The notes below the pieces were generated by a model. It did not search any database, was not told the DNA's origin, and saw nothing but the letters and a program-made list of their open reading frames with translations. Source: Bradyrhizobium sp. AZCC 1610 (lineage in GTDB: Bacteria; Pseudomonadota; Alphaproteobacteria; Rhizobiales; Xanthobacteraceae). Taken from it: a stretch of 64,000 nucleotides of DNA. A program made the position numbers and the translations under genes. Where the stretch lies: contig NZ_JAZHRR010000001.1 of assembly GCF_036924515.1 (NCBI RefSeq), positions 6,481,001 through 6,545,000 of the forward strand, given 5' to 3'. Shown here piece after piece: positions 7,558 to 25,704 of this stretch; position 1 is the first letter of the stretch, and each line of letters starts with the position of its first letter.

Positions 7558-7665
7558 ATCTTTTCGCCAGCGAAGACTAAAAAATGCCGTGGTGTCCCTT
7601 ACATTGCATTCCGCTGTCGGACCAGCCTGACATTAGTCTGCCAAGCCCCGTGTCGCCCACTAAGG

Positions 7666-7680
7666 TCAGGTAAATCCTGA
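7666..7680. promoter_or_regulatory. Palindrome TCAGG-TAAAT-CCTGA upstream of kinase gene
   Basis: A perfect 5-bp inverted repeat with a 5-base AT-rich spacer, 109 bases before the ATG of the minus-strand kinase. The same arms recur perfectly upstream of the paralogous kinase (25690-25704) and nearly perfectly at 148 and 3676. A binding site for the LuxR-type regulators is the simplest reading. Confidence 0.6.
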
Positions 7681-8346
7681 CGCGCCGCAGCCGTCACTCT
7701 CGTTTCCAGGCGCCGTTTCGGATCCGATCAGGCAAAACGCGAACAACAGGGTCCCCGCGGAAAACCAGCTCTCGACGAGCGCGTCGGCGGCTGCACGATT
7801 TGACGTCGAGTTACAGTCAAGCCTGAAGGTAGACGTTCGACAACTCCATGCCGTGGGAAATACTATTTGCGTTTGAGGCCCGGTCCCCTTTATCCGATAC
7901 ACGCACAAAGGGCCCCTTGGTTGCGGAGCGGATCGGCATCGCGTGAGACGGCAGCCGCCCTCGTGGCGCGCGCTTCGCAATGCGGCGCCTCTTGGCGTCA
8001 TCTGCCCGGATCAAATTTCGAGCCGAGGAAGTGATCGCCTACGACGGCGGTGTCCTCGCGATGCCGACTGTTCAAATGTTCGCACTTCTTGGAGTTGAGC
8101 CAAAATCGGTGCATCACCGCTACGTTACCTTGGTCAGCGGATCGATCTCGAAGCATTCGTCCCGGGCCGGCACGATAGGCCATCGCATAGCGATCGCTTG
8201 AGAGATCACAGGAAGCACCTACACGCCGTCCAATGAACAGCCGCCTTCGCGCTCCTGCGGGGCCCGGCAATGACACGGCGGCCGACAGCGCAAGAACACC
8301 GAACACACCGCTGAACAATAGGCGTAGTAAAAGAAGGGAGGGACGC
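7681..8346. other. No supported gene
   Basis: Several short frames on both strands overlap one another without recognisable motifs. The last bases contain the ribosome site of the small gene at 8347. Confidence 0.5.
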
Positions 8347-8478
8347 ATGAGGTACGCGACACTTGTGCTGGTTACGTCCGCAGCCCTGCTGCTGCTCGGC
8401 AGCGGGATCTGGGCCAACATCAGTAAGACACCGCTTTGGGAAATCCGGGGGCTCTGGGTCACCCAGGCCACGCGGTAA
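8347..8478 (+). CDS. Small membrane or exported protein
   Basis: The protein has 43 residues. A hydrophobic N-terminal helix (about 3-20) is followed by WANISKTPLWEIRGLWVTQ. A strong purine-rich site (AGAAGGGAGGG) lies just upstream of ATG 8347. I do not recognise it. It stands alone between regions without genes. Confidence 0.5.
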   Translation: MRYATLVLVTSAALLLLGSGIWANISKTPLWEIRGLWVTQATR

Positions 8479-8600
8479 ATGGCTTACTAACCTGATCGGG
8501 AACCCCTTATGGGCATATATCGACCTGCTTGGGGCCGGCGGTAAGGCGCGTGCATCCGTCGTCCCGCATCCCATCGATCTCGGCGCGCTCGGCTCTCGTG

Positions 8601-8830
8601 TCAGTTGATGGCTCTGTCAGCATCGCTGGGGAGCCGCACGACCCGCCGCTTTTGATCAACTAGGGCGTCATTACCGCGAAGCCCCGGCCTGATGGACGCA
8701 AGCCGAACGAATGCGAGGTAGTTGCCGGCGAGCTCGTCGTGGCGGGTTGTCAAGGTCTTCGCTACCCGCCGGAGGCCGTCTGGCCCTTTCCAACAGCTTC
8801 CTGCGCTTCGACAAGTGAGAGCGGGGCCTC
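8601..8830 (-). mobile_element. IS5-like transposase C-terminal remnant
   Basis: One minus-strand frame contains LRRVAKTLTTRHDELAGNYLAFVRLASIR, close to the C-terminus of IS5-family transposases (FRRIATRYDKLAANYLAFxxLAxxR). The region before it, holding RRKLLERA, is in another frame. The DDE catalytic part is absent and no terminal inverted repeats were found. It is a short decayed fragment. Confidence 0.55.
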
Positions 8831-9179
8831 CGCCAAGTCCTCTCGTCGGCAGAGAGCCTCGCAAGAGCTCTTGTGAACAAAATCGGCAGGAAGGAGGTGC
8901 TTCGGCATCTCCCGGGTATCCGAAGCCGATCGTATCGGTCTCGGCTCCCGCGACTGCGATTTCCGTCCACTGGTCGAGGCGGTGCAGCGCCGGCGTCCCT
9001 CAAACTACATTGTCTTGAGCTTCTTGGTGTGTGATTGCTTTGCACCCTCGCCACGAACAGGGGCAGGCATACTTACAAGCAGTAGCCGCATCGGCGTCCG
9101 AGCGACTATGACATGGAATCCGAAGCCGGGTCGCGCAGCGAGGCACCATCTGGGACGTCACCCCCGGCCTCGCATTCAA

Positions 9180-9779
9180 TCAGTGTGCCTTGGGTGCTGT
9201 ATCTTTGTCATTATTCTGAGTTTTTGCCGGAGACTCTGCCGTTTTGGGGAGTGACACCGGATTGTCTGCCAGCGTGTGAAGGTAATCGACAACGTCGGCC
9301 CGCTCGCTCGCGCGCGAAATGCCAGCGAATGTCATCGATGTGCCGGGGACATACCCACGCGGATCGGTCAGAAATTTGTCTAGCTCCTCAAACGTCCATT
9401 TTCCGCCCTTATCCTTCATCGCCGTCGAGTAGTTGAAACCATCCTCCGAGGCTCGTCGCCGGCCGACGATGCCCCAGAGATTAGGACCGACTCGGTTCGG
9501 ACCGCCCCTTTCGAATGTGTGACACGCTGAACATTTCTTCGCGGCGCTCTTGCCTCGCTCGACGTTTGCTTTCGCCAGACGTTGTTCGATTGGCTCCGGC
9601 TCGGCGGGCTGTTCGACTTTGGCTTCGGGGGTCGTTGGCTCTTGTACCGCAATGTCATAGCCGGGCTTTGCCGGCTCGTCGGGCGCAAAGATCGCGTCTG
9701 TGCCGATATTGACCGCGAGCAAGAAGGTAGAAGTACCCAGGATTGCGCCGAGAATCTTGTTGATTTCAAAGGAATCCAT
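9180..9779 (-). CDS. cycM: Membrane-anchored cytochrome c, CycM type
   Basis: The protein has 199 residues. An uncleaved N-terminal membrane anchor at about 7-25 is followed by a Pro/Glu-rich linker (about 35-66) and then a class I cytochrome c domain. Heme c attaches at CSACH (83-87) and the axial methionine is in PGTSMTF (about 149). It resembles CycM (cytochrome c552) of Bradyrhizobium, which carries electrons from the bc1 complex to the aa3 oxidase at the periplasmic face. A gene for oxidase subunit I lies in this window at 40214-41827, but it is not adjacent. The C-terminal 25 residues (SLPKTAESPAK onward) are a polar tail. The gene stands alone. Confidence 0.85.
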   Translation of the reverse strand: MDSFEINKILGAILGTSTFLLAVNIGTDAIFAPDEPAKPGYDIAVQEPTTPEAKVEQPAEPEPIEQRLAKANVERGKSAAKKCSACHTFERGGPNRVGPNLWGIVGRRRASEDGFNYSTAMKDKGGKWTFEELDKFLTDPRGYVPGTSMTFAGISRASERADVVDYLHTLADNPVSLPKTAESPAKTQNNDKDTAPKAH

Positions 9780-10740
9780 CAGGTTGACTGTCCACGCAAA
9801 TGTCCCTCCGCAGTCACGAACTCAAAGATGACTGCGACACATCAGTAGGCCGCACCTGCCATTCGTCATTATCAACATACGTTCCGCCCTGCGGTTTCTC
9901 GACAAAGTACGGCGGCGTACGTAGTCGCGTTTGCTGCTTTCCTCGATTACTTCCGACCGTCCGATAAAGTGGTGAACGTCACTTCCTAAGTGCGACCTTG
10001 ATGATGCAATTGACCGATGTCGTCGTTAAGGCCGTCTTGGATGTCCATTGAGGACTCCAATAATTCCGTCTTCTGTACCGGCAATTGAGATCGGTATCTA
10101 GATCACGACAAATGACTGGTGCGACGAGTTCCGGCGCTCCGCTGCGACAGACATCAAGGTTAGGTACGGCATCGGACAATAGCTTCCGTTCTCTCGTGAC
10201 GTGAGCGAGAAGATGGGAAGCCGCATTCATGGTCTGCCCGCAGGAATCATACTGTGCACGAACTCGTTTTCGAGCCGGAGAGAATTGATGCAATGACGTC
10301 CACGCTCGACATTGCGTGACGGGTGTCGAAGCATTCAGGCACCCCCTTGGCGAGTCTCCTGGCAGAACATGCGCGTCGCTCTTTCCCAAAGATAACAATC
10401 GAGCTTGCTCACGATAGAGAGGAAGACGAGGCGAGAATTTGCGCGGGAGCGCTCGCGCGCCTGATCGCTTCACAGTCAGCAATAAAGCGGTGGCGAGGCT
10501 CAGTGGAAGCTCGCGTGACACCCGTCGTGGACCGTACGCCATGACCGCCGCCGCCCATAAGGCTGGACATGGCAAGCGCATTTCTTGGACCTCGAGGGCT
10601 CGTGCGCGATCAAGCGCGCCTGGCACGAACCGGTCGTCTAGGGCCGGCTCGGCGTGCAGATCTACGAATAGTTCGTCCGTCTGTGCCGATTCGCGGTGGA
10701 GAGAAGGGAGAGTTGTCAGGAGCCACTCGAATGTTTGATC
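9780..10740. other. Long stretch without a supported gene
   Basis: A 215-codon minus-strand frame (9979-10626) and plus-strand frames at 10323-10738 overlap. None has a good ribosome site, a plausible composition or a known motif. Plus-strand text around 10590-10710 looks faintly protein-like, but stop codons interrupt it. This is probably decayed DNA. Confidence 0.4.
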
Positions 10741-11433
10741 TCATGACAGCAGATTTGGCTGCTCCGGTACAGTCGTTTCGCGCTTGATCTCCGCAAGAAT
10801 CTCTTTTGCGCGAGCGATCGCGACTTTTTGATCCTTTACGCTCAGGTCGTGAAGTAACGCATCGCGATCGCTCTTTGCGAAAGTGCTGCCCTCAAGCACA
10901 GCGACTTCCAACCACGCGTATGCCTCTATCGGATCTGCAACTACACCAAGACCAAGGCGGTACGTGCGACCTAGCAGCATCGCAGCGCGCGGGTCGCCGT
11001 GGTAGGCCGCTTCCTTCAGATAGATCTTTGCTTGCGAGAAATCAGGCGGTACGAGATTGCCGTGAAGGTAGATTTCCCCGAGCCTGAGCTCTGCAGCAAC
11101 GACGTTCTGATTGGCGGCCATCTTGTAAAGCTCAATAGCCCTCCCCGGATCACGGGGGGTCTCCAATCCAAGCTCGGTCATGTACCCGAGCCAATATTGC
11201 GCATCGGGATTGTTCTTATCGGACAGCTGAGTGAAGACGCTGATTGCAAACTGATTGTCCTCCCGAATGGCCTCCTTAGCGCGTTCCAGCTGTGACTGAC
11301 TTACCGCTGTGAAGCCGCGCCAACGCCATTCTTGGACCCCGAGACCAATTGCTACGCCGAAGACGGCAACAATCACGAGGGCGATAAGTAACGGACGCGG
11401 AACGCGTGGCTCACGAGGGTCAAGTGTCGTCAT
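10741..11433 (-). CDS. Membrane-anchored SEL1-repeat protein
   Basis: The protein has 230 residues from the ATG at 11433, chosen because GAGGAGC lies just before it (the frame is open 37 codons further). One TM helix (about 15-34) follows a short Pro/Arg-rich cytoplasmic tail. The periplasmic part holds SEL1/TPR-like repeats: AQYWLGYMTELG with DPGRAIELYKMAANQN, AELRLGEIYLHG, SQAKIYLKEAAYHGD, and AMLLGRTYRLGLGVVADPIEAYAWLEVA. Such repeats bind protein partners. The specific partner is unknown and no operon mate is seen. Confidence 0.8.
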   Translation of the reverse strand: MTTLDPREPRVPRPLLIALVIVAVFGVAIGLGVQEWRWRGFTAVSQSQLERAKEAIREDNQFAISVFTQLSDKNNPDAQYWLGYMTELGLETPRDPGRAIELYKMAANQNVVAAELRLGEIYLHGNLVPPDFSQAKIYLKEAAYHGDPRAAMLLGRTYRLGLGVVADPIEAYAWLEVAVLEGSTFAKSDRDALLHDLSVKDQKVAIARAKEILAEIKRETTVPEQPNLLS

Positions 11434-11951
11434 GCGAAGCTCCTCAGCGCCAAAGATGGACGGCGCGATTGGTCGGTACCAGGCAACAGATCGAGAGCAA
11501 GCATTATTCGTTGGACTGACTGATCCCATTTGTTTCGACGCCACCTATTTGGTGATAAAATTCTTTCGTTTCAACGTCACCCATGGGTCAGGCCGTGCAA
11601 GCGACCGCGCTGCTCTTGTTGGTACGGAGGCTCAATGCATTTTTCTTTCCCCGACATGCCGACCCGGTAGCCTGATCGCACTAAGCACACGGCGCTCCTG
11701 CGGATATGGAGCCTTCCCCCGAGCTGTGGATCGCGGCGCCGACACCATCAAGAATTTCCCGACTGGGTCTATTCTTGGTAGCGAAACTGCGACGAGCGCG
11801 CACCAATGTGCCGATTGCGAGGTTAGTCGGTCTGCCATCGTACCGAGTTCGTGATCTTTAGTGCTAGGCCCAACACCTATAGATCGCCATTTCCATTTGG
11901 GACGGTCGAACACCTTCAATGCACACTGTGCACACCCGGAGGAAACCAGCG
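11434..11951. other. Intergenic region, no supported gene
   Basis: This divergent region between the SEL1 protein gene and the DegP-like gene contains only shadow frames. The ribosome site GGAGGAAA of the protease gene is at its right end. Confidence 0.5.
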
Positions 11952-13448
11952 ATGATGCCAACACGTGCTTATCGGTTTGCGGTGGGTAGGATTGGAACGC
12001 TCGGGCAATCGAGCCTCCTTGCGGCAGCCCTGATTGGACTGGGCCTGCTGGTTGGTGGGTCCGGCACCTCACCTCAGCTGAACCTTCCAGGACTGATGAC
12101 TCACGCCTATGCGACCGAAAGCACAAGGCCCCCGGGTTTCGCGGATATCGTGGAACGGGTGAAGCCGGCCGTGATCGCGGTCCGCGTCAAGGTGGAAAAC
12201 AAGGTTGGGCCGGAGGCAGTGTTTCCATTCGATCCGGGATCACCTTTGGAGCGCTTCTTCCGCGAGTATGGCTTCCCGGAAGGAATACCGCGACATCGCT
12301 TTTCGAGGGCGCAGGGGTCGGGGTTCTTTATCTCGGCCGACGGATACGCTGTGACGAACAATCACGTGGTCAAAGGCACCAAATCGGTAGAGGTCGCCAC
12401 GGATGATGGGAAAACCTATAGCGCCAAGGTGGTCGGGGCGGATGCGAAAACAGACATTGCCCTTCTCAAGGTCGAAGGACGCGAGAACTTTCCGTACGTT
12501 ACATTTGCCGAAGGCGCTCCGCGAATTGGCGATTGGGTGATCGCGGTCGGCAACCCCTTTGGGCTGGGCGGCTCGGTGACGGCTGGCATCGTTTCCGCTC
12601 GCGGCCGAGATATTGGGGCCGGTCCCTACGACGACTTCATCCAGATCGATGCGCCAATTAACAAGGGCAATTCTGGCGGGCCGGCGTTCGACGCGAATGG
12701 GAGCGTCATTGGTGTTACGACCGCGATCTACTCACCGACCGGAGGATCTATCGGCATCGGTTTTGCCATTCCAGCGGACACAGCCCAGTCCGTGGTCGCG
12801 CAACTCAAGGACACAGGCTTCGTCACCCGCGGGTGGATCGGTGTCAGGATCCAATCGATCACGCCCGATATGGCCGACGCTCTGGGCATGAAGCAAGCGC
12901 GGGGGGTGCTGATTGTCCAACCTCAGCAGGGCAGGCCAGCGGCGGAGGCCGGTATCAAGGCGCGTGACGTGATCACTTCAGTAAACGGTCAAGACGTCAA
13001 AAATTCTCGCGACCTTGCGAAGAAGATTGCCGCGAGTCGTCCAGGCTCGAAGGTTGAGCTCGGGATCTTGCGGAATGGTGCCGAAAAGAAGATCTCCCTG
13101 ACGGTCAGCGAGATGCCAAGCGAGCGGCAGGCAGGCCTGGGTTTCAAGGGGCCGTTGAGCGGAGGCGCAGCCCCCCTTGGACTCACCCTCGTGCCGGCGA
13201 GCAGTGTCGCGGGCGTCGGCGACCGCGGCGTGGTGGTGATCGACGTCAGTCCCGACGGCCCAGCGGTGGCCGCTGGTATCCGCTCAGGTGATGTGATCCT
13301 TGAAGTTGCAGGCGAAGCCGTGAACAGTCCTTCAGACGTGCGCCAAGAAGTACGCGACGCGGCTCAATCAGACAAGCGGCACGTGCTGATGCGCGTGAAA
13401 TCCGGAGACGTCACTCGGTTTGTCGCATTAGCTCTTTCTGAGGGATGA
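11952..13448 (+). CDS. degP: DegP/HtrA-family periplasmic serine protease
   Basis: The protein has 498 residues from ATG 11952, which follows GGAGGAAACC. A signal sequence (about 15-40) leads to the periplasm. The trypsin-like domain shows the triad H138 (TNNHVV), D168 (KTDIALL) and S241 (GNSGGP). Two PDZ domains follow, one at about 285-385 (GWIGVRIQSI, AEAGIKARDVITSVNG) and one at about 405-495 (PAVAAGIRSGDVILEVAG). It should degrade or refold damaged envelope proteins. The length and order are normal for DegP/DegQ. It stands alone between a divergent SEL1 gene and a convergent DUF502 gene. Confidence 0.93.
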   Translation: MMPTRAYRFAVGRIGTLGQSSLLAAALIGLGLLVGGSGTSPQLNLPGLMTHAYATESTRPPGFADIVERVKPAVIAVRVKVENKVGPEAVFPFDPGSPLERFFREYGFPEGIPRHRFSRAQGSGFFISADGYAVTNNHVVKGTKSVEVATDDGKTYSAKVVGADAKTDIALLKVEGRENFPYVTFAEGAPRIGDWVIAVGNPFGLGGSVTAGIVSARGRDIGAGPYDDFIQIDAPINKGNSGGPAFDANGSVIGVTTAIYSPTGGSIGIGFAIPADTAQSVVAQLKDTGFVTRGWIGVRIQSITPDMADALGMKQARGVLIVQPQQGRPAAEAGIKARDVITSVNGQDVKNSRDLAKKIAASRPGSKVELGILRNGAEKKISLTVSEMPSERQAGLGFKGPLSGGAAPLGLTLVPASSVAGVGDRGVVVIDVSPDGPAVAAGIRSGDVILEVAGEAVNSPSDVRQEVRDAAQSDKRHVLMRVKSGDVTRFVALALSEG

Positions 13449-13939
13449 AGCCTGATCTCCCCCTGCGATGGTCCGATCGACCCCGTGGCACCCGAGTTCG
13501 GAGGGCTAAGCTACTTATGGGAGGGTACGCGTTTTCGAGCTCGGTGTGGCGCTCATCCGAACGACTGCGCCGGCCGAGCAGCCTGGCAGCGCCGTTGCGT
13601 AGTGAGGTTCTCCACGGGAACTCAAAAGGAAGGTGATCTCTTGACGTTCGAAGGCTTGTTCAAATATCCGCTCGGGGACTGACGTTCGCGCTGATTAGGT
13701 GCGGATTGAGCGAGCTGCGCACGCGGCAGCCTTGTCGACAGCGATCGGGGACATCCGTTACTTCATTCTCGCTCGCACTGTTGACGATTTTCGTATCGAT
13801 CGACTGCCAGCTGTTGGTTGGTTGCTGGAGCCTTCTGCGCAACCGCGCCAAGGTGCCGCATCCACATCGTGTTGATCCGTGACCGAAGCGCATCGGCACC
13901 GCTTGGTACTGAACTAACAGCCCGTCTGTCTTCCATTCA
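13449..13939. other. Intergenic region, no supported gene
   Basis: This region between the convergent protease and DUF502 genes shows no recognisable coding frame and no clear terminator hairpin. Confidence 0.45.
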
Positions 13940-14614
13940 TCAGGACCGCGCGACCGTCGGGATAACCTCGCGGGCAAGCACACCGAAGGAAAAGTAGAGC
14001 TTTATCAGCGCGTCCGCGTCCATGCTGGGAACGCGTATCACTGCGGCTTCCGGTACTAAAACCAGGCCACCCCAGGCGGGGAGAGGCGAAGTCGGCAGGT
14101 AGACCAACAAGCGTCGGTCGCCGCCAACATCGAAAACCTCGTTAGCAGCGAGCAAGGCTGGGACGTCCGCCCCTTGATCCCCTCCGAGGCGGCACATCAC
14201 AACCGGCAGGCCGGCCAAGTCTGCTTTGCTGGCGGCAAAAAGACGAACGACTTGGGAAACGGGGCGATAGATGGATCGAAATAAAGGCACCGTCGCCAGC
14301 ACGTCGTCTAGGGTCCGATCGAGTGCGCGTCGTGCCTCGATTCGCACGATAAGGCCAAGGAGCCAAAGGCTTGCAAGGGCGATGCAAGCACCGATGAGAA
14401 AGGCGATTAGCCCACGTTTCTGCCCGACGATTGCCGCGCCGCCACTCGTCAGCAGATCGCCGATCCACGTACCCGGACCGATTGTCGCTCCAACGGTACT
14501 GATGACCCAACTGATGATCAGGACGGTCAGCATAAATGGCAGCAGAACGAACATGCCAGTCAGCAGATTTCCAATGATACCTGTTCGCCAAAACTTTCCT
14601 AAGATCGAGTGCAT
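13940..14614 (-). CDS. DUF502 membrane protein
   Basis: The protein has 224 residues. Two strong membrane helices (about 12-40 and 66-90) are followed by a soluble domain with typical DUF502 features: PLFRSIYRPVSQVV, then a GGLVLVPEAAVIRVP stretch resembling the family's PTTPNPTSG region. The ATG at 14614 has GAGG about 8 bases before it. DUF502 proteins are widespread inner-membrane proteins of unknown function. No operon partner is visible. Confidence 0.85.
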   Translation of the reverse strand: MHSILGKFWRTGIIGNLLTGMFVLLPFMLTVLIISWVISTVGATIGPGTWIGDLLTSGGAAIVGQKRGLIAFLIGACIALASLWLLGLIVRIEARRALDRTLDDVLATVPLFRSIYRPVSQVVRLFAASKADLAGLPVVMCRLGGDQGADVPALLAANEVFDVGGDRRLLVYLPTSPLPAWGGLVLVPEAAVIRVPSMDADALIKLYFSFGVLAREVIPTVARS

Positions 14615-14827
14615 TGTCGAGACCTCAAGCTTGGACAGGGACCAGGACGCTGTTAGTTCAGCAGCTGAACTACGGTATCATTGTTGACTACGAAGTCCTG
14701 TGCTCGGCGACCAAACGATTGCGCTCTGTTAATTCCAGTCATCGCGACCTACCAGGCGGAGCCGGGGCCGCCAGGGGTCAATCTGACGGTGGGGGAAAAG
14801 GCGTGAAACGCATGGCTGCGTTTTTAC

Positions 14828-16633
14828 TCACGGGCGCCTGTGTCTCGCTTCGCTTCCAAGCGTGTTGAAGCGCGCTTTCTGCTCGCCGCTCAACGAAGCG
14901 TAGAACGTCTGGAGTGCCGGCTGCACTGTCCTGGCAGCGTCGACCATCGCCTTTAGCCGGCTCTCCATCGCCTCGAGCCGGCCGACCGGCGTCTGCGGAG
15001 TAACGTCGGGACAAGCGGATTGGAGCATATCAACTGCGCTCACCGTCGCTCCTCTCAATTCGTCGAGCGCCTTCTCCTGCGACCCCTGTGGCCGCACAAC
15101 CTCCTCGATCCTTCCAATCGGCAGGTCTATCAGGCCTGGCTTGGGCTCGCCGCAACGGGAGGCTTCGTCTTGCGCCTGAGTCTGCCGGCCGGTGCTGGCG
15201 CGGCCCACCTCCGGCCCGAGCAGGTTGAAACGCGCCTTCTGCTCGTCGTCCAGCGAATTGTAGAACGCCTCGAGCGGCGGCCGCACAATACGGATGGCCT
15301 CAAGCGTCGCCTCAAGCCGCTCAATCATGACCTGCAAACGTCCGGTCGGCGTCATCGGAATGTCCGTGGGGCAGGCAGCCTTGAACGCCTCGGCTGCCTC
15401 CGCTGCCGCCGTCTTGAGGTGATCCAGAAGCTTTTCCTGCGCGGGATCCAGCCGAATAGCATTCTCGATGCGCTCGAACGGCCACGCCGTGACGACTTTG
15501 GCCGGCTCGCAGACCTGCGCAATCACCCGGGCGGCTCGGTCGCGGGACGCCCGGTCGCCAGGCGACGCACTCTTCAAACCGTCCGGGTACGGCGCGGCAT
15601 ATGTGGATTGAGAATAGGAACTGCCGTACGGCCAGAAGATTCCTTCGAAAATGTCGTCGTAGGCGTATGCCCAATAACCCTCGCTATAGGCATAAGGCCA
15701 GAACGTATAGTGGAAGATGTCAAAGTAGGCATACGGCCAGAAGACCGGTCCCACCCACGCTACGAAGTGAGCGTGATGCTTATGCCGCCAGGCGTGCCGT
15801 GCAGCGACCCCGGCCCGGCGCGCCTCTCTGGCCTGCTGCCGGGCTTCCTCGGCCTGCCGCCGGTCGGCGCGGAATTGCGCAGCGAAGCGCCCGCGAGCGG
15901 CCGCCTCCGGCGTTAGGGGAGCGGGCCGCCGCTCACGCGCTTCGAGTCGCTCCTGGCGCCGCTGTTCGCGCTGCTGCGCACGTTCCCGAAACAACTGCTC
16001 CCGTCGCTGCGCACCGTCCTGTCGCCGCTGCTCACGCTGCTCCAGCCGCTCCTTCCGCTCTGCGGCACGCTCCTGCTGGCGTTGCTCTCGTTGCGGCTCC
16101 GCCTGCCGCGCGCGCTCGCGGTCCTCTCGGCGGTCTGGCTGCACCGCGCGCTCCCGCCGTTTCTGCAACCGCTCCTCGGCCCGTTCCCGCCGGCGCTGCA
16201 GCCGATCCTCGGCCCTCTCCCGTCGGGGCTGCAACCGCTCTCGACGTTGCTGTTGAACGTTCTCATGCCGTTGCGGGCGCCGGACACGTTCCTGTCGGCG
16301 CTGTTGGCGGGCGCGCTGCTCGATCCGCGACCGAGGTTGCGCACGCATGTGCCGCTGAATTCGCTGTTGCCGTTGCAGTTTTTGGCGAACCTGCGGTGGC
16401 GCAGCCCGTCGGATGCTTGGTGCGGCGCGAGACGGCATGCCGCGCGGGGCAACGCGCGGAACCGGAGCAGCCCTCGGGACCACCCGGTGCGGTGCTGCCT
16501 GTCTTGGCATCGCTGCGCGAGGCGCGGGTGCGGCAGCTCCTGGACGATGCCCTCTCGGCTGTGCGTCCAAAGTCATGGGCATTGCCGTGAACACAAGAAG
16601 CCCGGTGACGAGGCAGGCGACGAACCTGATCAT
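14828..16633 (-). CDS. Exported Arg-rich protein with two LTXXQ (Spy/CpxP-like) domains
   Basis: The protein has 601 residues from ATG 16633. A signal peptide is at about 1-24 (ends in TLDAQ). Residues about 25-120 are Pro/Ala/Arg-rich. Residues about 70-270 are extremely Arg/Gln/Glu-rich, with repeated RRERAEERLQ-like units likely to form a long charged helix. A Tyr/Trp-rich patch with repeated FWPYAY follows. Two homologous C-terminal domains of about 100 residues carry the LTXXQ-type ends DDEQKARFNLLG and SGEQKARFNTLG. Such domains occur in Spy/CpxP periplasmic chaperones and in rhizobial LTXXQ proteins. A perfect EcfG-type promoter lies upstream, so general-stress control is likely. Confidence 0.8.
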   Translation of the reverse strand: MIRFVACLVTGLLVFTAMPMTLDAQPRGHRPGAAAPAPRAAMPRQAAPHRVVPRAAPVPRVAPRGMPSRAAPSIRRAAPPQVRQKLQRQQRIQRHMRAQPRSRIEQRARQQRRQERVRRPQRHENVQQQRRERLQPRRERAEDRLQRRRERAEERLQKRRERAVQPDRREDRERARQAEPQREQRQQERAAERKERLEQREQRRQDGAQRREQLFRERAQQREQRRQERLEARERRPAPLTPEAAARGRFAAQFRADRRQAEEARQQAREARRAGVAARHAWRHKHHAHFVAWVGPVFWPYAYFDIFHYTFWPYAYSEGYWAYAYDDIFEGIFWPYGSSYSQSTYAAPYPDGLKSASPGDRASRDRAARVIAQVCEPAKVVTAWPFERIENAIRLDPAQEKLLDHLKTAAAEAAEAFKAACPTDIPMTPTGRLQVMIERLEATLEAIRIVRPPLEAFYNSLDDEQKARFNLLGPEVGRASTGRQTQAQDEASRCGEPKPGLIDLPIGRIEEVVRPQGSQEKALDELRGATVSAVDMLQSACPDVTPQTPVGRLEAMESRLKAMVDAARTVQPALQTFYASLSGEQKARFNTLGSEARHRRP

Positions 16634-16664
16634 GATGAATTCCCGCGCGTCGCCCTTCAATGCA

Positions 16665-16690: not shown

Positions 16691-17289
16691 TTGCGCAACC
16701 AATGGGGCCTTCGAGACAGTACGGTATCGTACCGGGTCAATGGGCGCCGTTACAGGTTAGAGACGAAGCCGACTGACGCTATGCAGCCCAGAGGCGGACT
16801 TGTTCTCTAGTCGAGCGTCGCGACGTATCTAGTCGAATTCCGGTGCACTTTGCTTACGACGAGAGCCTTAACGCTGATTCGGGCCTCCAATATCTGGCAT
16901 CCAGCAGTTTGCATCCTGTAGAGCATGCTCTCGTCAACGGCGAGGTCGACATCCTTAGTTTCGTCAGTGCGTCGTCACCGAAAACCTTCGTGACCGTAAA
17001 CTCGCGTGGCCGCGCGCTTCGTTCCTCGACGGATGCTGGGAAACGCATCATCGTCTTCGCAAATGTTCATGGCTCTGTTTCGGTATTGGTACGCAACGAG
17101 ACCAATTGGCCTCGCTTTCCGGGGGACTGCCGGTCCACACCAGGAAACGAACGCGGCGGTTCTTGCTTCTTCCTATATGTGTGTTTCTTGGACTGGGACT
17201 TTAGACCGGACGCGAATGATCGGGAATGATCTGCTGTCGCTGGCGTGCCCGCATCCCAAAAGCCAATTCATTGGCAAGTTGCGCGAACC
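16691..17289. other. No supported gene
   Basis: An open frame at 16843-17229 has no ribosome site and no recognisable motif. The stretch separates the stress promoter from the MscS remnant. Confidence 0.45.
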
Positions 17290-18370: not shown

Positions 18371-18904
18371 ACCGATGTTGAGGCTCGGCAGTCGGAGAAG
18401 ATGGGACTGGCAGCGAGTGCTCGCGCACGCAAGTTGGCGCGAAGCGAACATCGAGACCGAAGGTGCAGGCTCAGGGGAAGCCCTGACAACCCGGTGTTTT
18501 GCCTCCAAGGTCGACAAAGTATCAGCCGAAGCAAGCCCGCAACATCTCCCATCTCGGCCTCACGGCCGCTCCGACAAACGAAGTGGCGAGCTCCGGCGAT
18601 AAAGGAGACAAAAGTGTGATCGTGACAACCGTCGATCCCGAGGGCGCGGACGCGGGTCACGGCTCGCAGTCCGGCAACATCGTCGGCGGCGCAGGAGACA
18701 TCCGCAAGGCGCTCACGGAAGCGAAAAGCGACGGCAACACGACGTGCGGTAAAGGTGAAGACATCGCGGGCCACCAAGTTCGTCGCGATGCGGATTGGCT
18801 GGTAGCAGGAGGTGCTGCCTGTGCGCGTCGCCGGACGCGCCAAGCGGCAAGGCCTATAAGGGCGGGTTGTTCGATCCGGTCCCCTTTCCTTCAATGCTAG
18901 ACTT
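18371..18904. other. No supported gene
   Basis: Frames on both strands (18499-18900 plus, 18334-18894 minus) overlap and show no recognisable domain. The right edge abuts the stop of the RND transporter gene. Confidence 0.4.
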
Positions 18905-21900
18905 TCAGACCGTCCTCACCGCACCGGGGGCGCCCTGCTCCACCCGGCGGGAATGATCGGATGCTATCAACAGATAGACCGCCGGAACCACGAACAGCGT
19001 AAACAGTGTTCCGATCGAAAGTCCGCTCGCGATCACGAGTCCCATGTTGAACCGCGATACGGCGCCGGCGCCGCTTGCGGTGATCAGCGGCACAACCCCG
19101 AGCACCATCGCCGCGGTCGTCATTAAAATCGGACGCAACCTGATACCGGAGGCCTGCTCGATAGCCTCACGCTTGGAGACGCCGCTGCGCTGCAGCTCGT
19201 TGGCGAATTCGACGATCAGAATCGCATGCTTGCTGATCAGCCCCATCAGGGTCACCAGGCCAACATTGGTGTAGATGTTTAGCGATGCGCCGCCGACGCC
19301 AAGGTTCACGAAGATCAGCGCGCCCGCGATCGACATCGGCACCGAGACCAATATGATGCACGGATCGCGGAAGCTTTCGAACAGCGCAGCAAGCGAGAGG
19401 AAGATAATGACAAGCGCGAATCCGAAGATAGCAAGGAACCCGGAGGATTCCTGGATGTATTGCCGCGACAGCCCGCTGTAATCAGCAGTGTAGCCCTGAG
19501 GCAAGGTTTTGGCGGCCAGGTTGATGAGGAAATCCAGCGCGTCGGCATGCGCCACGCCGGGCGCTGCAACGCCCTGGATCGTGGCGCTGTTGAGTTGCTG
19601 GAAGTGATTGAGTGTCTCCGGTACCGTTTTGGCGGTGATGTGTGCAATCGTCGACAGAGGCACCGGAACGCCGGAGACGTTAGCGACATAATAATTGAGC
19701 AGCTGATCGGTGTTCAGGCGAAATCGCCGTTGAACTTGGGGGATCACCTTGTAGGAACGCTGATCGAGGCTGAAATAGTTCACATACCCACCGCCCAGCA
19801 TCGCCGCCATGGCGTTGCCGACATCGCTCATATTGAGCCCGAGTTGCGCGGCCTTGTCGCGATCGATCTCGACCACCGCTTGCGGGCTGTCGATCTTCAG
19901 ATCCGTATCGAGGAAGATGAACATGCCACTGTCGAGCGCGGCCCTAAGGAAGCGCTGGGCGACATCATTGAGCCTGTCGAATGAATCGGTGGTCTTGATC
20001 ACAAACTGTACCGGCAAGCCCTGGCTGCCCGGCAGCGGCGGGAGCTGAAACGCGGCAATGCGAGCGCCAGCGACCCGGTCGAGCTGGCGTTGAACGATCG
20101 GCTGGAGCTGGTTGCTGGTTCTCTTGCGTTCGTCCCATGGTTTCAGCACCATGCCCGCGACCACGTTGGCGGGGGAGTTGATCTGGAAGACGTGATCGGT
20201 CTCCGGAAATCCTTTCATGATCCGGTAAACCTGCTGGGCATAGAGCACCTTCTGTTGCAACGTGGCGTTTGGCGCTAGCGTCGACGACGCGATAACGACG
20301 CCTTGATCTTCCTGCGGTGCGAGCTCGCTTTTGGCGCCAGCATAGAGGAAATAGATGCTGGACAGCACCAGCGATGCGAAGACCGCCGTTACGGGGATAA
20401 AGTCTAGGCTGCTGTGCAGCCACCTCATGTAAAAGCGCCGTAGTAGCTCGAAGCGATAGTCGATAAGGACGACGAGGCGTTCCTGCCAGCCTTGCGCCGT
20501 GCCGTGGCCCTTGAGCAGGCGCGAACTCATCATCGGCGACAAGGTGAGCGCGACGACTGCCGATATGGTCACGGCGCCGACCAGGGTGAATGCGAATTCG
20601 TTGAACAGCGCGCCGGTCAGGCCGCCCTGGAACGCGATCGGGACATAGACCGCGACCAGGACGATCGTCATTGCGATGATCGGACGCCCGAGTTCTCGCG
20701 CACCCTCGATCGCCGCGACAACCGGCGTCTTTCCTTCCTCAAGATGACGGTTGACGTTCTCGACGACGATGATGGCGTCATCAACTACGAGGCCGATGGC
20801 AAGCACCAGTGCTAGTAGAGTCAGGAGATTGATCGAGAAGCCGAGCACCAGCATCATCGTGAAGGCGCCGACCAATGACAGCGGGATCGCGACCATTGGG
20901 ATGACGACGGAACGCGCAGATCCCAGAAACAGGAACACGACCAAATTGACGATCAGCAGCGCCTCGACCAGCGTCCACACCACGTCGCGAATTGCGGCAT
21001 GCACGAAATCCGTCGAATCGTAAACGATCCGGCCGTGCAGGCCATTCGGCAGTGCTGCATGGATGGCCGGGAATATCTTGTGTATGCCAGCGATAACGTC
21101 GAGCAGATTGGCCGTCGGCGCCACCTGGATGCCGATATAGACCGCGGACTTGCCGTCGAAGGCGACTTGGGTTTCGTAACTTTCCGCGCCGAGCGAGACG
21201 TCCGCTACGTCCTTCAGCCGCACGATCGCGCCGCCCACCTGCTTAACGATCAGATTGGCAAATTCGCTTTCAGTGTGCAGGCCGGTCGACGCGGTCAGAT
21301 TGACCTCCACCATTTGGCCCTTGGTGGTGCCGATTCCAGAGATATAGTTGTTTTGGGTCAGCGCCGCGGAAACGTCGGCGGCACTGAGGCCGTAGGCGGC
21401 GAGCTTCTCTGGGTCGAGCCACGCGCGCAACGCAAAGTTCTGCGCACCCAGAATCTCTGCGGTCTGCACCCCCGGTACAGTCTGTAGCTTCGGCTGCACG
21501 ACGCGGGTGAGATAGTCGGTGATCTGGTTCCGGGCCAGCACTTCGCTATCGAAGCCAAGATACATGGCGTCCACGGTCTGGCCGATCTGCACCGTCAAGA
21601 CCGGTTGCTGCGATCTTGAGGGAAGCTGGTTCAACACCGAATTGACTTTGGTGTTGATTTCCGTCAGCGCCTTGGCGGCATCGTAGTTCATCCGCAGGTT
21701 GAGAGTTATCGAAGAGACACCGCTCGCGCTTTTCGAGGCCATGTAGTCGATACCGTTCACCTGCGCGATCGCATTCTCGAGCGGCGTGGTGATGAATCCC
21801 GCGATCACGCCGGGATCAGCGCCGTAATAGGTCGTGGTGACGGTTACGACGGCGTTCTGCGTGCGCGGATACTGCAGCACCGGCAACGAACCCATGGCGC

Positions 21901-21979
21901 GCAGGCCGAGTGCAAGGATCATCAGACTAACGACAGTTGCGAGAACCGGTCGACGAATGAAAAGCTCGGTGAAGTTCAT
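18905..21979 (-). CDS. RND efflux transporter, AcrB/MexF family
   Basis: The protein has 1024 residues from ATG 21979, which follows GAAGGGACTGCA; the frame extends 40 codons upstream without need. It has the full HAE1-RND layout: TM1 after NFTELFIRRPVLATV, two large periplasmic loops, and twelve membrane helices. The proton-relay aspartates are in GLVVDDAIIVVENV and the C-terminal half has SKHAILIVEFANEL. It exports amphiphilic compounds in exchange for protons. The adaptor gene ends 10 bases upstream, so the two form an operon. No outer-membrane TolC-like gene is present here, so it must use one encoded elsewhere. Confidence 0.95.
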   Translation of the reverse strand: MNFTELFIRRPVLATVVSLMILALGLRAMGSLPVLQYPRTQNAVVTVTTTYYGADPGVIAGFITTPLENAIAQVNGIDYMASKSASGVSSITLNLRMNYDAAKALTEINTKVNSVLNQLPSRSQQPVLTVQIGQTVDAMYLGFDSEVLARNQITDYLTRVVQPKLQTVPGVQTAEILGAQNFALRAWLDPEKLAAYGLSAADVSAALTQNNYISGIGTTKGQMVEVNLTASTGLHTESEFANLIVKQVGGAIVRLKDVADVSLGAESYETQVAFDGKSAVYIGIQVAPTANLLDVIAGIHKIFPAIHAALPNGLHGRIVYDSTDFVHAAIRDVVWTLVEALLIVNLVVFLFLGSARSVVIPMVAIPLSLVGAFTMMLVLGFSINLLTLLALVLAIGLVVDDAIIVVENVNRHLEEGKTPVVAAIEGARELGRPIIAMTIVLVAVYVPIAFQGGLTGALFNEFAFTLVGAVTISAVVALTLSPMMSSRLLKGHGTAQGWQERLVVLIDYRFELLRRFYMRWLHSSLDFIPVTAVFASLVLSSIYFLYAGAKSELAPQEDQGVVIASSTLAPNATLQQKVLYAQQVYRIMKGFPETDHVFQINSPANVVAGMVLKPWDERKRTSNQLQPIVQRQLDRVAGARIAAFQLPPLPGSQGLPVQFVIKTTDSFDRLNDVAQRFLRAALDSGMFIFLDTDLKIDSPQAVVEIDRDKAAQLGLNMSDVGNAMAAMLGGGYVNYFSLDQRSYKVIPQVQRRFRLNTDQLLNYYVANVSGVPVPLSTIAHITAKTVPETLNHFQQLNSATIQGVAAPGVAHADALDFLINLAAKTLPQGYTADYSGLSRQYIQESSGFLAIFGFALVIIFLSLAALFESFRDPCIILVSVPMSIAGALIFVNLGVGGASLNIYTNVGLVTLMGLISKHAILIVEFANELQRSGVSKREAIEQASGIRLRPILMTTAAMVLGVVPLITASGAGAVSRFNMGLVIASGLSIGTLFTLFVVPAVYLLIASDHSRRVEQGAPGAVRTV

Positions 21980-21989
21980 TGCAGTCCCT

Positions 21990-23120
21990 TCACTCTTCCG
22001 AGACTTGCGGGTTCGCGCTGAAGGGTACGGGAATTTCGTTGTTGGTCCGAACGGGCGACCCGTTGTGGAGCTTGTTCTGCCCAGCTGTGACCACGACATC
22101 GCCGGGCTTGATTCCCTCCAGCACCGCGACCTGGTCGCCGCGCGTCTGACCCGTCTTCACGAAGACCTGGCGCGCGACCTCCTGCTCGCCTCCGCCCTCG
22201 TCCTTTCCTGCATTCTCAACCACGTAGGTGATGCTGCCATAAGAGTTATAGTAGATCGCAGTTTTCGGCAGGGTCACGTAGCGCTTTGGCTCGCCAATGT
22301 CGATGTCGACGGTTGCGAACATTCCCGGCAATAGCCTTTCGTCGGGATTGTTAAATGTCGCGCGGATCTGGACATTGCGGCTCGCCTCATCGACGAGCGG
22401 ATTGATTGCCAGGATCTCGCCGGTGAACTTCAACTTGGGATAGGTGTCGACCTCGGCGATGACGGCCTGCCCGACCCTGACCTTCGCCAGCGCCTGCTGC
22501 GGCAGGTAGAAATCGACGAAAATCCGCTCAAGCTGCTGCAGCGTCACGATCGGCGTGCCTGGCGCGATATATTGGCCGAGATCGATCTGTCGGATGCCAA
22601 GCCGGCCGGAGAAAGGGGCCCTGATCGATTTGTAACTGACCAGCGCCTGCTGTTGCGCCACCTGCGCCTGATTGTTCTTGAGCGTCGCCAGGGCGTTATC
22701 GACGGTCTGCTGGCTGATGGCCTCGGTCTTTAGCAACTTGCTGTCGCGGTCATAGTTGAGCTGCGCTAGCGCCGCCGTCGCCTGGAAAGCGTGCAGACGG
22801 GCGACATCGTCGGCATCTTCCAGTTCGACGAGCAGCGCTCCCTTCTCGACTCTTCCGCCGGACTCGAAGTGGATCGATTTGACCATTCCGGCGACCTGCG
22901 CACTAAGGTCGGCCCCCTTCGCCGCCCGGGTACTGCCCACAGCCTCCAGGCGATCCTGCCACTGCTGCGTGGTGGCCGTGATCGTGGACACCGTCTGCGG
23001 CGGGTTCCGCAGACCCTCGATTGCTTTCTGGATCATTCTCGCCCTGAAAGCTTCAAACCCAAAGATCGCCGCAAAAACCACGCCGACAGCGACCAACATT
23101 ATGGCCATACGTCGAAACAT
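21990..23120 (-). CDS. RND efflux periplasmic adaptor (membrane fusion protein)
   Basis: The protein has 376 residues from the likely ATG at 23120 (an in-frame TTG at 23153 would add 11 residues). An N-terminal membrane anchor is at about 3-25. The lipoyl/barrel-sandwich halves surround a coiled-coil hairpin (about 95-165; QATAALAQLNYDRDSKLL, TLKNNQAQVAQQQALV). Next come SYKSIRAPFSGRLGIRQIDLGQYI and the beta-barrel and membrane-proximal parts (LLPGMFATVDI, GIKPGDVVVTAGQNKL). It links the inner-membrane pump, encoded 10 bases downstream, to an outer-membrane channel. No regulator gene is adjacent. Confidence 0.93.
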   Translation of the reverse strand: MFRRMAIMLVAVGVVFAAIFGFEAFRARMIQKAIEGLRNPPQTVSTITATTQQWQDRLEAVGSTRAAKGADLSAQVAGMVKSIHFESGGRVEKGALLVELEDADDVARLHAFQATAALAQLNYDRDSKLLKTEAISQQTVDNALATLKNNQAQVAQQQALVSYKSIRAPFSGRLGIRQIDLGQYIAPGTPIVTLQQLERIFVDFYLPQQALAKVRVGQAVIAEVDTYPKLKFTGEILAINPLVDEASRNVQIRATFNNPDERLLPGMFATVDIDIGEPKRYVTLPKTAIYYNSYGSITYVVENAGKDEGGGEQEVARQVFVKTGQTRGDQVAVLEGIKPGDVVVTAGQNKLHNGSPVRTNNEIPVPFSANPQVSEE

Positions 23121-23497
23121 CCGGGGGCCCCGGCTCTTATAAGATACACCCAATAACGCGCGCGCTACCTGGCGGTCTCACTCTTTCGAGATGTTGATTG
23201 GGGAATTGATTCCTTCTCAAGGAGAGTTGAGTTTCTTGCGGCGCGCCCTCGCCTTGAATTTCATTTCTCGCGTCGCCCTAGGACGCCTCTCCCCCTCACC
23301 TTCGCTTTAATTTGGAGGCGATCTCGATCAAGAATCGAGTCCGCAAGAAACAAGTGCAAGACGCACGCATTGCGCCGACTTCGCGACAATCGCAGCATGC
23401 GACGTTCGGAGGTCTGCCCGCGGTGACGAGCCAAGCGAGCGGGATCGACAAATTAGCCCTCCGCTACACTCTCGCGCGGAGAGTTACTCCATGAGTG
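23121..23497. other. Intergenic region, no supported gene
   Basis: This region upstream of the efflux operon contains the plus-strand frame 23312-23494, which has no motif. No clear operator or repeat was seen. Confidence 0.45.
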
Positions 23498-24721
23498 CTA
23501 TGAGCTGGCCTCAGCGTTCATGACCGGTCCGAACAACTCCCAGGATTTCCCGTTAAACCGCATCATCTGTAACTGCTCAATTGGCGCAAAGTCCGAAGTG
23601 CTGGTGTTGATCTTGATTCCGGGCAACAGCAATCCGGGATCGAAGTCCTTCAGGTTGGCGGCCTGCTTCATAACGTTTTCGCGCGTCAGATTGTCACCGC
23701 ACATGTCGAGGACATGAACAAGCGTCCGCGCCACCGAATAGCCGACTGCCACGCCTGCATCGGATCTGTCGGCGTCCGGCATATATTTGTCGAGGAATGC
23801 CGCCCATTCCTTGGAATCCGGTTCGCTCATCCACCTGGGATCCGTTTCGTCCTTCATGTACGCGGCCGAGATGATCCCCTTGGCATTTTCAAATCCGGCG
23901 GGCTTCAGAACCGCGCCGATCGATGCACTTACGTTGTTGAGAATGAAGAGCGGATCCCAACCGAGCTGGCGCACCTCTAGGATCGTCTGCGCGGCGAATT
24001 TGGGCGTCGCGACGGTGAACAGAACGTCGGCTCCGCTGGCCTGCAGGTTCACGATGTGAGACGATATCGTTGGTTCTGATACATCGTAGCTGTCCTTGGC
24101 CACGATCATACCTGCTTTGTTCCCCAACCCGTCAACCAGACCTTTCAGGTAATCCCTTCCGTAGTCGTCGTTCTGATACAGGACGGCGATTTTCGCGTTT
24201 GGTTTGTGTTCGAGGATGTAGCGGGCGTAGATCCTTGCTTCGGTCTGGTAGTTCGGCTGCCAGCCCATGGTCCACGGAAAGTCCTTTGGATCCGCCCATT
24301 TCGTGGCTCCGGTAGCGACGAACAATTGCGGTACCTCCTTCCGGTTCATGTAATGGTGAATGGCTGTGTTGGTTGGCGTGCCAAGCGAATTAAAGATCAG
24401 CAAGACACCGTCGCTCTCAACCAATTTTCTGGCTTGTTCGACGGTCTTTGGGGGACTGTACGAGTCATCGTACGATATAAAGTTGACCTTCCGACCGTTG
24501 ATGCCGCCTTCGTCGTTGATCTTCCGGAAATACGCAGCTTCGGTGCGCCCGATAACGCTATAGGCGGACGCAGGCCCGCTGTAGGGCATGATATTGCCGA
24601 TCTTGATCTCAGTGTCGGACGCGCCGGTGTCATACTTCTTTTGTGCGGTGGCCGCTCCAATGGACGAGACCAGGGCCATTGCCGCAATTAGAGCGGTCGC
24701 ACTTCGCATACTGACTTTCAT
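23498..24721 (-). CDS. Branched-chain amino acid-type ABC substrate-binding protein
   Basis: The protein has 407 residues. A signal peptide (about 1-26) ends in GAATAQ. The mature protein has the type I periplasmic binding fold of LivK-like proteins: IKIGNIMPYSGPASAYSVIGRTEAAYFRKINDEGGINGRKV at the start, later KIAVLYQNDDYGRDYLKGL, and ARTLVHVLDMCGDNLTRENVMKQA near the end. It should deliver an amino acid, amide or aromatic acid to a permease. No intact permease or ATPase gene is near; a livF remnant lies 18 kb away at 42.5 kb. It is probably an orphan receptor using a transporter encoded elsewhere. Confidence 0.92.
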   Translation of the reverse strand: MKVSMRSATALIAAMALVSSIGAATAQKKYDTGASDTEIKIGNIMPYSGPASAYSVIGRTEAAYFRKINDEGGINGRKVNFISYDDSYSPPKTVEQARKLVESDGVLLIFNSLGTPTNTAIHHYMNRKEVPQLFVATGATKWADPKDFPWTMGWQPNYQTEARIYARYILEHKPNAKIAVLYQNDDYGRDYLKGLVDGLGNKAGMIVAKDSYDVSEPTISSHIVNLQASGADVLFTVATPKFAAQTILEVRQLGWDPLFILNNVSASIGAVLKPAGFENAKGIISAAYMKDETDPRWMSEPDSKEWAAFLDKYMPDADRSDAGVAVGYSVARTLVHVLDMCGDNLTRENVMKQAANLKDFDPGLLLPGIKINTSTSDFAPIEQLQMMRFNGKSWELFGPVMNAEASS

Positions 24722-24785
24722 GTCATGCTCCTTGCATACGTTTTCCGACTGAAGAAGGCCCTGCCTGAGAAGCGACTTTTGTCCT

Positions 24786-25604
24786 TTACGAATGAGCGAT
24801 TCGGATCGCGGGAGGCAAATTGAGCGAACGATCGTGAGCGGATTGGATTACATGATAGCAATTGCAAGATACCGCTTCGAGGCGTCTCTCGTCGACGATA
24901 ACGGTCCTTCCTCGGCCCCGCCGGATCATGCCGGCGTGCTCCATCGCACCCATGGTCGTCGTGATTCCAGCGCGGCGTACGGCCAATGCCTGCGCCATCG
25001 CGCGATGCGTCAGAGCGATCTCATTTGAACCAAATCTGTCCTTGGCTACCAGCAGCCATCTTGCGAGGCGCTGTGTCAGGTTATGCCGCGAATTGCACGC
25101 AATCAGCTGGGAGCTGTGTATCAGCGTGGCCTGCACGTATCCCAAAAGCAGCTTTTCAATCTCGACGTTCGTCTTGACGAGATGGACGAGGTCCTCGGCT
25201 GGCAGGCGCAACGCTTGTCCCGCCACCTGCACTGTGCAGCGATGCGGAGAAACCCGCATTCCAAGAATTAGGGGTATGCCGACGAAATCCTTTCTGCCCA
25301 ATGTATGAATCTCAACGGGCGGGCAGTCCCCCGCTCGGGCAGTGAGGGAGGCGGCACCCGACTCGATGAAATAGGCAAACCGCAATTCAGCCCCCCGCTC
25401 CTGCAGCATTTGTCGCTGGAACAGGCGGACCGTCTCGCAACGATCGAGCAGTTGGTGACGCGATTGCGACGACAGGCGTCCGACGAGATCGTTAGCAATT
25501 AAGCAACCGGGCCCGCCTGTCCATGCGCGAGGTGCTCTCAATGCAGTTTCGACCCCATCTGAGTGCCTCGTTCTTGCTTCTGCCGTTTGATCGGGCCTAA
25601 GCAT
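24786..25604 (-). CDS. Crp/Fnr-family transcriptional regulator
   Basis: The protein has up to 272 residues. The first 30 residues may not be translated, since the domain starts near VGRLSSQSRHQLLDRCE. A cyclic-nucleotide-binding-like beta barrel spans about 40-150 (YFIESGAASLTARAG, VEIHTLGRKDFVGIPLIL). A dimer helix and C-terminal winged helix follow (LTQRLARWLLVAKDRFGSNEIALTHRAMAQALAVRRAGITTTMGAMEHAGMIRRGRG). It lacks the Fnr cysteine cluster, so it is not an oxygen-sensing Fnr. It is transcribed divergently from the kinase gene at 25780, and the 175-base gap holds the TCAGG palindrome. Confidence 0.9.
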   Translation of the reverse strand: MLRPDQTAEARTRHSDGVETALRAPRAWTGGPGCLIANDLVGRLSSQSRHQLLDRCETVRLFQRQMLQERGAELRFAYFIESGAASLTARAGDCPPVEIHTLGRKDFVGIPLILGMRVSPHRCTVQVAGQALRLPAEDLVHLVKTNVEIEKLLLGYVQATLIHSSQLIACNSRHNLTQRLARWLLVAKDRFGSNEIALTHRAMAQALAVRRAGITTTMGAMEHAGMIRRGRGRTVIVDERRLEAVSCNCYHVIQSAHDRSLNLPPAIRIAHS

Positions 25605-25689
25605 AACTATCTCCTGGATAATGGTGACCTCTGCCTAAAGGTTGGGGCAGATGGCCGCCATCAGCAGTCGGGCTGAGCGTCAGGGTCGG

Positions 25690-25704
25690 TCAGGAAAAAC
25701 CTGA
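25690..25704. promoter_or_regulatory. Palindrome TCAGG-AAAAA-CCTGA upstream of kinase gene
   Basis: A perfect inverted repeat between the divergent Crp/Fnr gene and the sensor kinase gene, 75 bases before ATG 25780. The flanking bases extend the symmetry (GGTCAGG and CCTGACC), giving a 7-7 repeat. It is the best copy of the element in the window and a candidate site for autoregulation by the downstream response regulator. Confidence 0.65.

Follow-up and report, generated by a model that had tools for sequence, protein, structure and literature searches.

A predicted operator, GTCAGG-N5-CCTGAC, of two paralogous two-component systems in Bradyrhizobium and related genera

The stretch of DNA analysed here (the window, 64,000 nucleotides; positions 6,481,001 to 6,545,000 of contig NZ_JAZHRR010000001.1) belongs to Bradyrhizobium sp. 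AZCC 1610 and contains two paralogous two-component systems, each with a sensor histidine kinase (HK1, HK2) and a response regulator of the NarL/FixJ (LuxR) type (RR1, RR2). A palindrome, TCAGG-N5-CCTGA, recurs upstream of both kinase genes, and predicted operators of the same kind precede several neighbouring genes (Table 1).

Table 1. Genes and predicted regulatory elements around the two systems (window coordinates; aa, amino acids)
Feature	Position	Strand	Basis or remark
RR1, NarL/FixJ (LuxR)-type response regulator	4829..5482	-	Receiver and GerE domains
HK1, sensor histidine kinase (HisKA_3, HATPase_c, weak dCache match)	5479..7557	-	Pfam
-10-like TCCGAC of HK1	7616..7621	-	17 bases past TTGGCA; weak TATAAT match
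-35-like TTGGCA of HK1	7639..7644	-	Conserved spacing after palindrome
GTCAGG-N5-CCTGAC, predicted operator of HK1 gene	7665..7681	-	Centre about -64 from predicted promoter
HK2, paralogous sensor kinase (HisKA_3, HATPase_c, weak dCache match)	25780..27825	+	Pfam
RR2, paralogous response regulator (receiver, GerE)	27822..28484	+	Pfam
GTCAGG-AAAAA-CCTGAC palindrome	25689..25705	.	Between HK2 and divergent CRP/FNR-type gene
Third half-site GTCGGG	25667..25672	.	With palindrome, predicted type II operator 25667-25704 (minus)
CRP/FNR-type regulator, divergent from HK2, predicted type II target	24786..25604	-	Pfam HTH_Crp_2 and cNMP_binding; synteny
Peripla_BP_6 substrate-binding protein, behind CRP/FNR-type gene	23498..24721	-	Pfam
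Predicted type I operator ACAGG-TTTTT-CCTGA	3676..3690	+	Only composite type I match in home genome
-10-like TAGGAT	3714..3719	+	24-29 bases past 3676 operator; fits type I spacing
87-aa conserved small protein, predicted type I target	3741..4004	+	No Pfam/NCBIfam family
Decayed type I operator ACGGG-CTTTT-CCTGA	2836..2850	+	Perfect sites before homologous gene in relatives
-10-like TAATGT of decayed 2836 operator	2875-2880	+	Counted among the 20 type I sites
65-aa small hydrophobic protein (hydrophobicity by eye), predicted type I target	2974..3168	+	No Pfam/NCBIfam match
TCAGG-AAAAA-CCTGT copy, function doubtful	148..162	.	No -10 at right spacing (by eye)
Degenerate copy TAAGG-AAATT-CCTGA	2028..2042	+	Upstream of DUF2934 protein gene (ORF 2151-2525)

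In both pairs the open reading frames (ORFs) of kinase and regulator overlap by 4 bases; HK1 and HK2 are 46% identical and RR1 and RR2 60%. Both kinases carry the HisKA_3 domain, and the Response_reg and GerE domains scored above the gathering score in RR1 (86.6 and 59.2 bits) as well as in RR2 (91.9 and 66.4 bits). The recognition-helix segments of the two regulators read VSVKSVETYKARA and VSVKTVETHKSRA, respectively; since further paralogs could be compared only in part, we do not claim that these are the sole regulators of the genome with that helix. The dCache_1 match of the kinases (24.5 and 35.8 bits) falls below the gathering score of 45. In the structural model of HK1 (mean predicted local distance difference test score, pLDDT, of 63.3) mixed helices and strands occupy approximately residues 60-225, a block with pLDDT of 59-85, while residues 228-261 are under 50. 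Among the top 50 hits of a fold search with the whole HK1 model, which were dominated by kinase cores and whole receptors, none matched a sensor domain alone.

Among solved structures the top matches of RR1 are VraR, NarL and DevR, with which it shares the receiver and GerE domains. Regulators of this type (NarL, VraR, DevR, RcsB) usually bind as dimers to inverted half-sites. In NCBIfam the two kinases and the two regulators scored highest with the MctS and MctR models, though well short of the curated cut-offs (148 and 153 against 700 bits for the kinases, 165 and 186 against 300 for the regulators). One report (PMC9100948) deals with RpuS/R, described as regulating mctP, in the context of symporter-fused kinases. 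No symporter domain was found in HK1 or HK2 by Pfam.

The original prediction, made from the window sequence, had noted perfect copies of the palindrome at 7666-7680 (spacer TAAAT) and 25690-25704 (spacer AAAAA), and both were verified; as the kinase ORFs start at 7557 (minus strand) and 25780 (plus strand), the gaps of 109 and 75 bases given for them are also correct. The one-mismatch copies at 148 and 3676 exist as described, but the list was incomplete, with four more at 1910, 2028, 25911 and 39540. The copy at 2836 had been called weak and does have two mismatches; it corresponds, nevertheless, to a site that is perfect in relatives. Altogether the window holds 49 matches with up to two mismatches, against 27.05 in shuffled sequences (standard deviation 5.43, largest 39).

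The genome-wide enrichment that the original prediction had named as a check was seen in the home genome (7,751,184 bases, one contig), where 10 exact copies were found against 2 of a reversed control, and 8 copies of CAGG-W5-CCTG against 1. Half of these last eight lie in the window (binomial P of about 3e-7, a post-hoc figure), and the non-coding copies are confined to it. All 8 exact copies outside the window are spanned by ORFs of at least 184 amino acids, the coding status of the copy at L001 being unsure, and the four outlying CAGG-W5-CCTG copies lie in argF, a glycosyltransferase gene, aspS and a dihydroorotase gene (names read from translations). No ORF of more than 32 amino acids wholly spans either kinase-upstream copy, and a 111-residue minus-strand frame (7666-8001) has its stop codon inside the 7666 copy. 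The eight exact copies under long ORFs look accidental, as do the window copies at 1910, 25911, 39540 and perhaps 148. The nearest relative, L118, has no exact site at the place of this last copy, and no transfer RNA gene that would make it a boundary mark was found in L116, to the left of the window. The 2028 copy has no -10 at the type I spacing described below; a perfect site stands at the matching place in L103.

Those accidental-looking copies are what would be expected if the palindrome were a product of chance and base composition, an explanation that we regard as practically negligible given its conservation across genera with varying spacers. When 13,312 palindromes (5-base half-sites, spacers of 0-12) were ranked in kinase-upstream DNA, TCAGG-N5 came first with 21 of 35 clusters, and the best palindrome not overlapping it reached 4. 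Because the outer G and C are almost equally frequent (20 clusters), the full element was taken as GTCAGG-N5-CCTGAC. The W5 enrichment, this top rank, and the spacing to -10-like hexamers and the co-occurrence with the regulators given below, with their P values, speak against chance as well.

The expected conservation upstream of related kinases was found across genera. Among the 19 named HK1-type loci (L118-L135 and L139) the exact palindrome is present in 15, starting 117-123 bases upstream of the kinase, and L139 carries a TCGGG form. The 16 HK2-type loci, all from Bradyrhizobium or related metagenome-assembled genomes (MAGs), have seven exact copies and seven of the TCGGG form. Exact copies also occur at all five Microvirga loci examined and at the single Azospirillum locus, and the TCGGG form in Beijerinckia; L156 lacks the palindrome at its kinase, and in L163 its sequence is altered. 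The spacer varies among relatives while the arms stay. HK1 and HK2 form separate clades in the tree (100/100) with the other genera outside; as the element is found in both clades and in the outside genera, it is most simply read as older than the HK1/HK2 split. Bradyrhizobium sp. 190 has two HK1-type loci (L134 and L118), with the palindrome at -122 and -123. In viral contigs three stretches matched a pattern, none of them encoding an RR1 relative.

Besides its place at the HK1 promoter, the palindrome occurs in two layouts, types I and II. At the HK1 gene, TC[AG]GG-N5-CCTGA was found in 17 of 20 HK1-type upstream regions; in all 17 the hexamer [CT]TGGCA starts 20-24 bases past it, followed 17 bases further by TCCGAT or TCCGAC in 16. 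Reading these hexamers as -35 and -10 places the centre of the palindrome between -62 and -66, mostly at -64, the same position as that of the distal element of type II described below. A sigma-54-like reading of the conserved TTGGCA block was considered by eye and dropped.

Type I comprises further sites of the form ACAGG-N5-CCTGA that lie beside RR1, in the window and in relatives, upstream of unrelated small genes. In all 20 non-redundant type I sites a TANNNT hexamer starts 24 (17 sites) or 25 (3 sites) bases past the palindrome; at every other offset between 1 and 60 there is at most one such hexamer. Taking TANNNT as the -10, the centre of the palindrome falls at about -43. No TTGACA-like consensus appears in columns 1-6 after the operator. 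Class II activator promoters have an operator centre near -41 to -43, set at a constant distance from the -10, and a weak or absent -35; the type I sites show both features, with the transcription start assumed. The site at 3676 has its counterpart in 14 of the 15 named HK1-type loci with a homolog of the 87-residue gene, L126 being without it. For this protein, 120 of 123 candidates matched at E <= 1e-3, and 56 proteins were found at the same threshold for the 65-residue one.

Two observations concern this same region. Behind the 65-residue protein, a second small hydrophobic frame (3172-3386) resembles a conserved partner in L099 and L108; with no usual start codon seen, it may have decayed. 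A palindrome copy with an ATTAA/TTAAT spacer, off the type I -10 spacing, is conserved in L122, L124, L125, L127, L130 and L132 (and L103), between the regulator gene and, mostly, a BA14K-like gene.

The type I geometry bears on whether the inverted repeat acts at the RNA level, as the hairpin of an attenuator, a leader structure or a terminator. With arms of 5-6 bases and a mostly AT-rich 5-base loop it could fold; however, at 20 of 20 type I sites it lies 23-24 bases upstream of the -10-like hexamer and thus outside the transcript of that promoter. Moreover no covariation of the arms was seen by eye, a single arm being often altered alone (ACAGG, TCGGG), and type II adds a direct instead of an inverted half-site. 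We consider a hairpin role very improbable.

Type II was seen in the intergenic region between HK2 and the divergent CRP/FNR-type gene. Here a third half-site, direct and not inverted, accompanies the palindrome: TC[AG]GG stands at -20 or -21 from it in all 16 loci with an intact palindrome (19 examined), which include Microvirga, Azospirillum and Beijerinckia. Since most type II operators have a -10-like YANNNT 24 or 25 bases past the proximal half-site, this half-site would lie near -43 and the palindrome near -64/-65. The genes that follow type II operators are mutually non-homologous and include the CRP/FNR-type gene, a homolog (in L232) of the Peripla_BP_6 gene of the window, and small proteins; in L097/L147/L232 that homolog is preceded by a separate type II operator. 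In the HK2 orientation no -10 conserved across clades was seen by eye.

For co-occurrence, regulator relatives were counted at E <= 1e-50 in 146 genomes of the genus. They are present in 28, of which 16 have the RR1 type and 13 the RR2 type (three, G000, G057 and G120, have both) and 2 only divergent relatives; the remaining 118 are the genomes with no regulator at this threshold. The type I composite was found within about 2.1 kilobases (kb) of the regulator gene in 15 of the 16 RR1-type genomes, with 20 local matches and none in G033. G057 has one additional type I match elsewhere in the genome, and the RR2-only genomes G041 (beside RR2) and G130 have one each. In the 118 no-regulator genomes it gave 13 matches against 17 for the reversed control. 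The type II composite (TCAGG-N5-CCYGAC-N15/16-CCYGAC) gave 25 matches in 15 of the 146 genomes, the reversed control none in all 146; it is present in 13 of 13 RR2-type, 0 of 13 RR1-only and 2 of 118 no-regulator genomes (Fisher P of about 4e-16 for 13/13 against 2/118). The home genome has a single match, the one upstream of HK2. In 397 genomes drawn from the order four non-own matches were found, each with a spacer containing 4 or 5 G/C.

Of the 13 RR1-only genomes 11 have the palindrome at HK1, and the type II operator precedes the CRP/FNR-type gene in 10 of 10 RR2-only genomes, which supports use of the element by each regulator alone. Some type II operators of the RR2 clade lie about 17-44 kb from the regulator gene; the regulon of this clade would therefore not be strictly local. 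A type II operator is also present at CRP/FNR-type-looking paralogs in L230 and L233 (G113 and G143), which lie about 26-44 kb from RR2. A 594-residue porin-looking ORF of a Hyphomicrobiales MAG, 2.3 kb from a kinase relative, has a type II-like operator (L156:17-54) upstream of it.

The neighbourhood of HK2 raises the question of whether the palindrome could be the site of another DNA-binding protein, for instance of the CRP/FNR-type regulator itself. Its gene lies upstream of the kinase in all 14 HK2-type loci tested and in five of five Microvirga loci, with the element between both genes. On the other hand, no CRP/FNR match was found in the fetched flanks of the 18 HK1-type loci L118-L135, 15 of which carry the exact element, and the loci L154 of Azospirillum and L160 of Beijerinckia, likewise devoid of a match, have the element together with the third half-site. 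As the presence of the composites also tracks the regulator genes, we find this alternative improbable.

We propose that GTCAGG-N5-CCTGAC is very probably the operator of RR1, RR2 and their orthologs, mainly an activating one, through which the systems would regulate themselves and a compact, mostly local set of genes. The same half-site code recurs in all layouts, at two positions separated by two helical turns; this, together with the co-occurrence of the composites with the regulators, is why we favour binding by RR1 and RR2, mainly to activate. In a phosphorylated regulator dimer, each DNA-binding domain would recognise one GTCAGG half. A palindrome near -43, as in type I, occupies the usual place of the -35 and could recruit RNA polymerase in the manner of a class II activator, while one near -64, as in the HK1 promoter and in the distal part of type II, would exert its effect from a position two helical turns upstream of that. 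In type II this distal palindrome would work together with the proximal half-site near -43. Under this model the systems would autoregulate and also control the small proteins, the CRP/FNR-type regulator and, in places, the substrate-binding protein. The autoregulation already suggested in the original prediction is strongly supported.

The lux box of LuxR-type activation is centred near -42.5, and the arrangements described here resemble the class I and class II forms of that activation, type I with its centre near -43 and no -35-like hexamer, and HK1 with its centre near -64. They differ in the operator sequence and in the combination of palindrome and half-site in type II, and are known here from sequence alone. 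The GTCAGG half-site, with its N5 spacer and its -43/-64 layouts, is not known to correspond to any NarL or RcsB consensus. A full-text literature search, which covered few of the subscription journals, likewise found no description of this element, in agreement with what the original prediction had supposed; the papers that it returned included one on human muscle (PMC1769400) and a review of DNA methyltransferases (PMC10073500).

It could also be imagined that RR1 and RR2 bind the palindrome mainly to repress, in a negative autoregulation at the kinase promoters. The absence of a conserved HK2-orientation promoter by eye and the good -35-like TTGGCA that HK1 has of its own would fit this. 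The type I promoters, with the operator in the place of a missing -35-like hexamer, show instead the pattern of activator dependence, and the HK1 site lies upstream of the predicted promoter, at about -64. Predominant repression is therefore rather unlikely in our judgement.

Several observations weigh against the activator-operator proposal or reduce the force of its support. The palindrome is missing upstream of the HK1-type L132, L133 and L135, and L143 (spacing of 6 between the halves), L147 (two direct half-sites) and L163 yielded no intact copy. The bare motif CAGG-W5-CCTG is not in excess where RR1 is lacking: its mean was 2.25 in the 12 genomes that have RR2 or a divergent relative and no RR1, against 2.42 in the 118 without a match, where it also exceeds the reversed control (1.27); this background excess is tentatively attributed to coding sequence. 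The promoter elements are uneven, since the -10-like TCCGAC of HK1 is weak, the YANNNT was found at the said distance in 20 of 25 type II operators, and in the CRP/FNR promoter of the home genome the position of the -10 is occupied by a poor match, CAACCT. In type I, the TTAAT-spacer sites were set apart before the count, and their three non-redundant rows have no TANNNT at 24/25. Furthermore the patterns were defined partly on species that were later counted, so 15/16 and 13/13 are not independent tests, although the rarity of the composites elsewhere and the matches at further genes are independent of that definition. The orthologs are related to each other, and the 16 type II loci were not thinned.

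The idea of one element serving both systems holds for the half-site and the palindrome, which are shared, and less so for their arrangement, as the two regulator clades use different layouts. This split argues for a partial separation of the two systems. Cross-regulation in genomes with both pairs is possible. We tentatively suggest, with somewhat less than even confidence, that the duplicated systems kept one half-site code and became separated by operator architecture, the RR2 type with a palindrome plus a third half-site and the RR1 branch with a single palindrome at -43 or -64, each a small and largely self-contained cassette. The RR2-type layout (near -64 and -43) is also that of Microvirga, Azospirillum and Beijerinckia. 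If this separation is true, how well the two systems are insulated from each other could naturally be examined in G000, G057 and G120; with genomes that hold RR1 only, RR2 only or both, the group lends itself to asking whether duplicated regulators with a common half-site avoid cross-talk or make use of it. The proposal gives this sensor pair, of which the literature search found no description, a candidate operator code and target list, and would link it to conserved small proteins and a CRP/FNR-type regulator.

The remainder of the window offered some further observations, in which several gene names are readings of translations. Between the two systems (9180-23153), where no type I or type II composite match was found, lie genes for a cytochrome c, a Sel1-repeat protein, a trypsin-like PDZ protease, a DUF502 protein, an LTXXQ protein and an AcrB-type efflux pair. 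Within this region two overlapping frames at 17245-18619, the second with a match to the beta-domain of mechanosensitive channels, suggest an interrupted channel gene. Towards the left end, a fragment at 1003-1383 with a weak resolvase match (21.7 bits against a gathering score of 23.3) is possibly the remnant of a mobile element.

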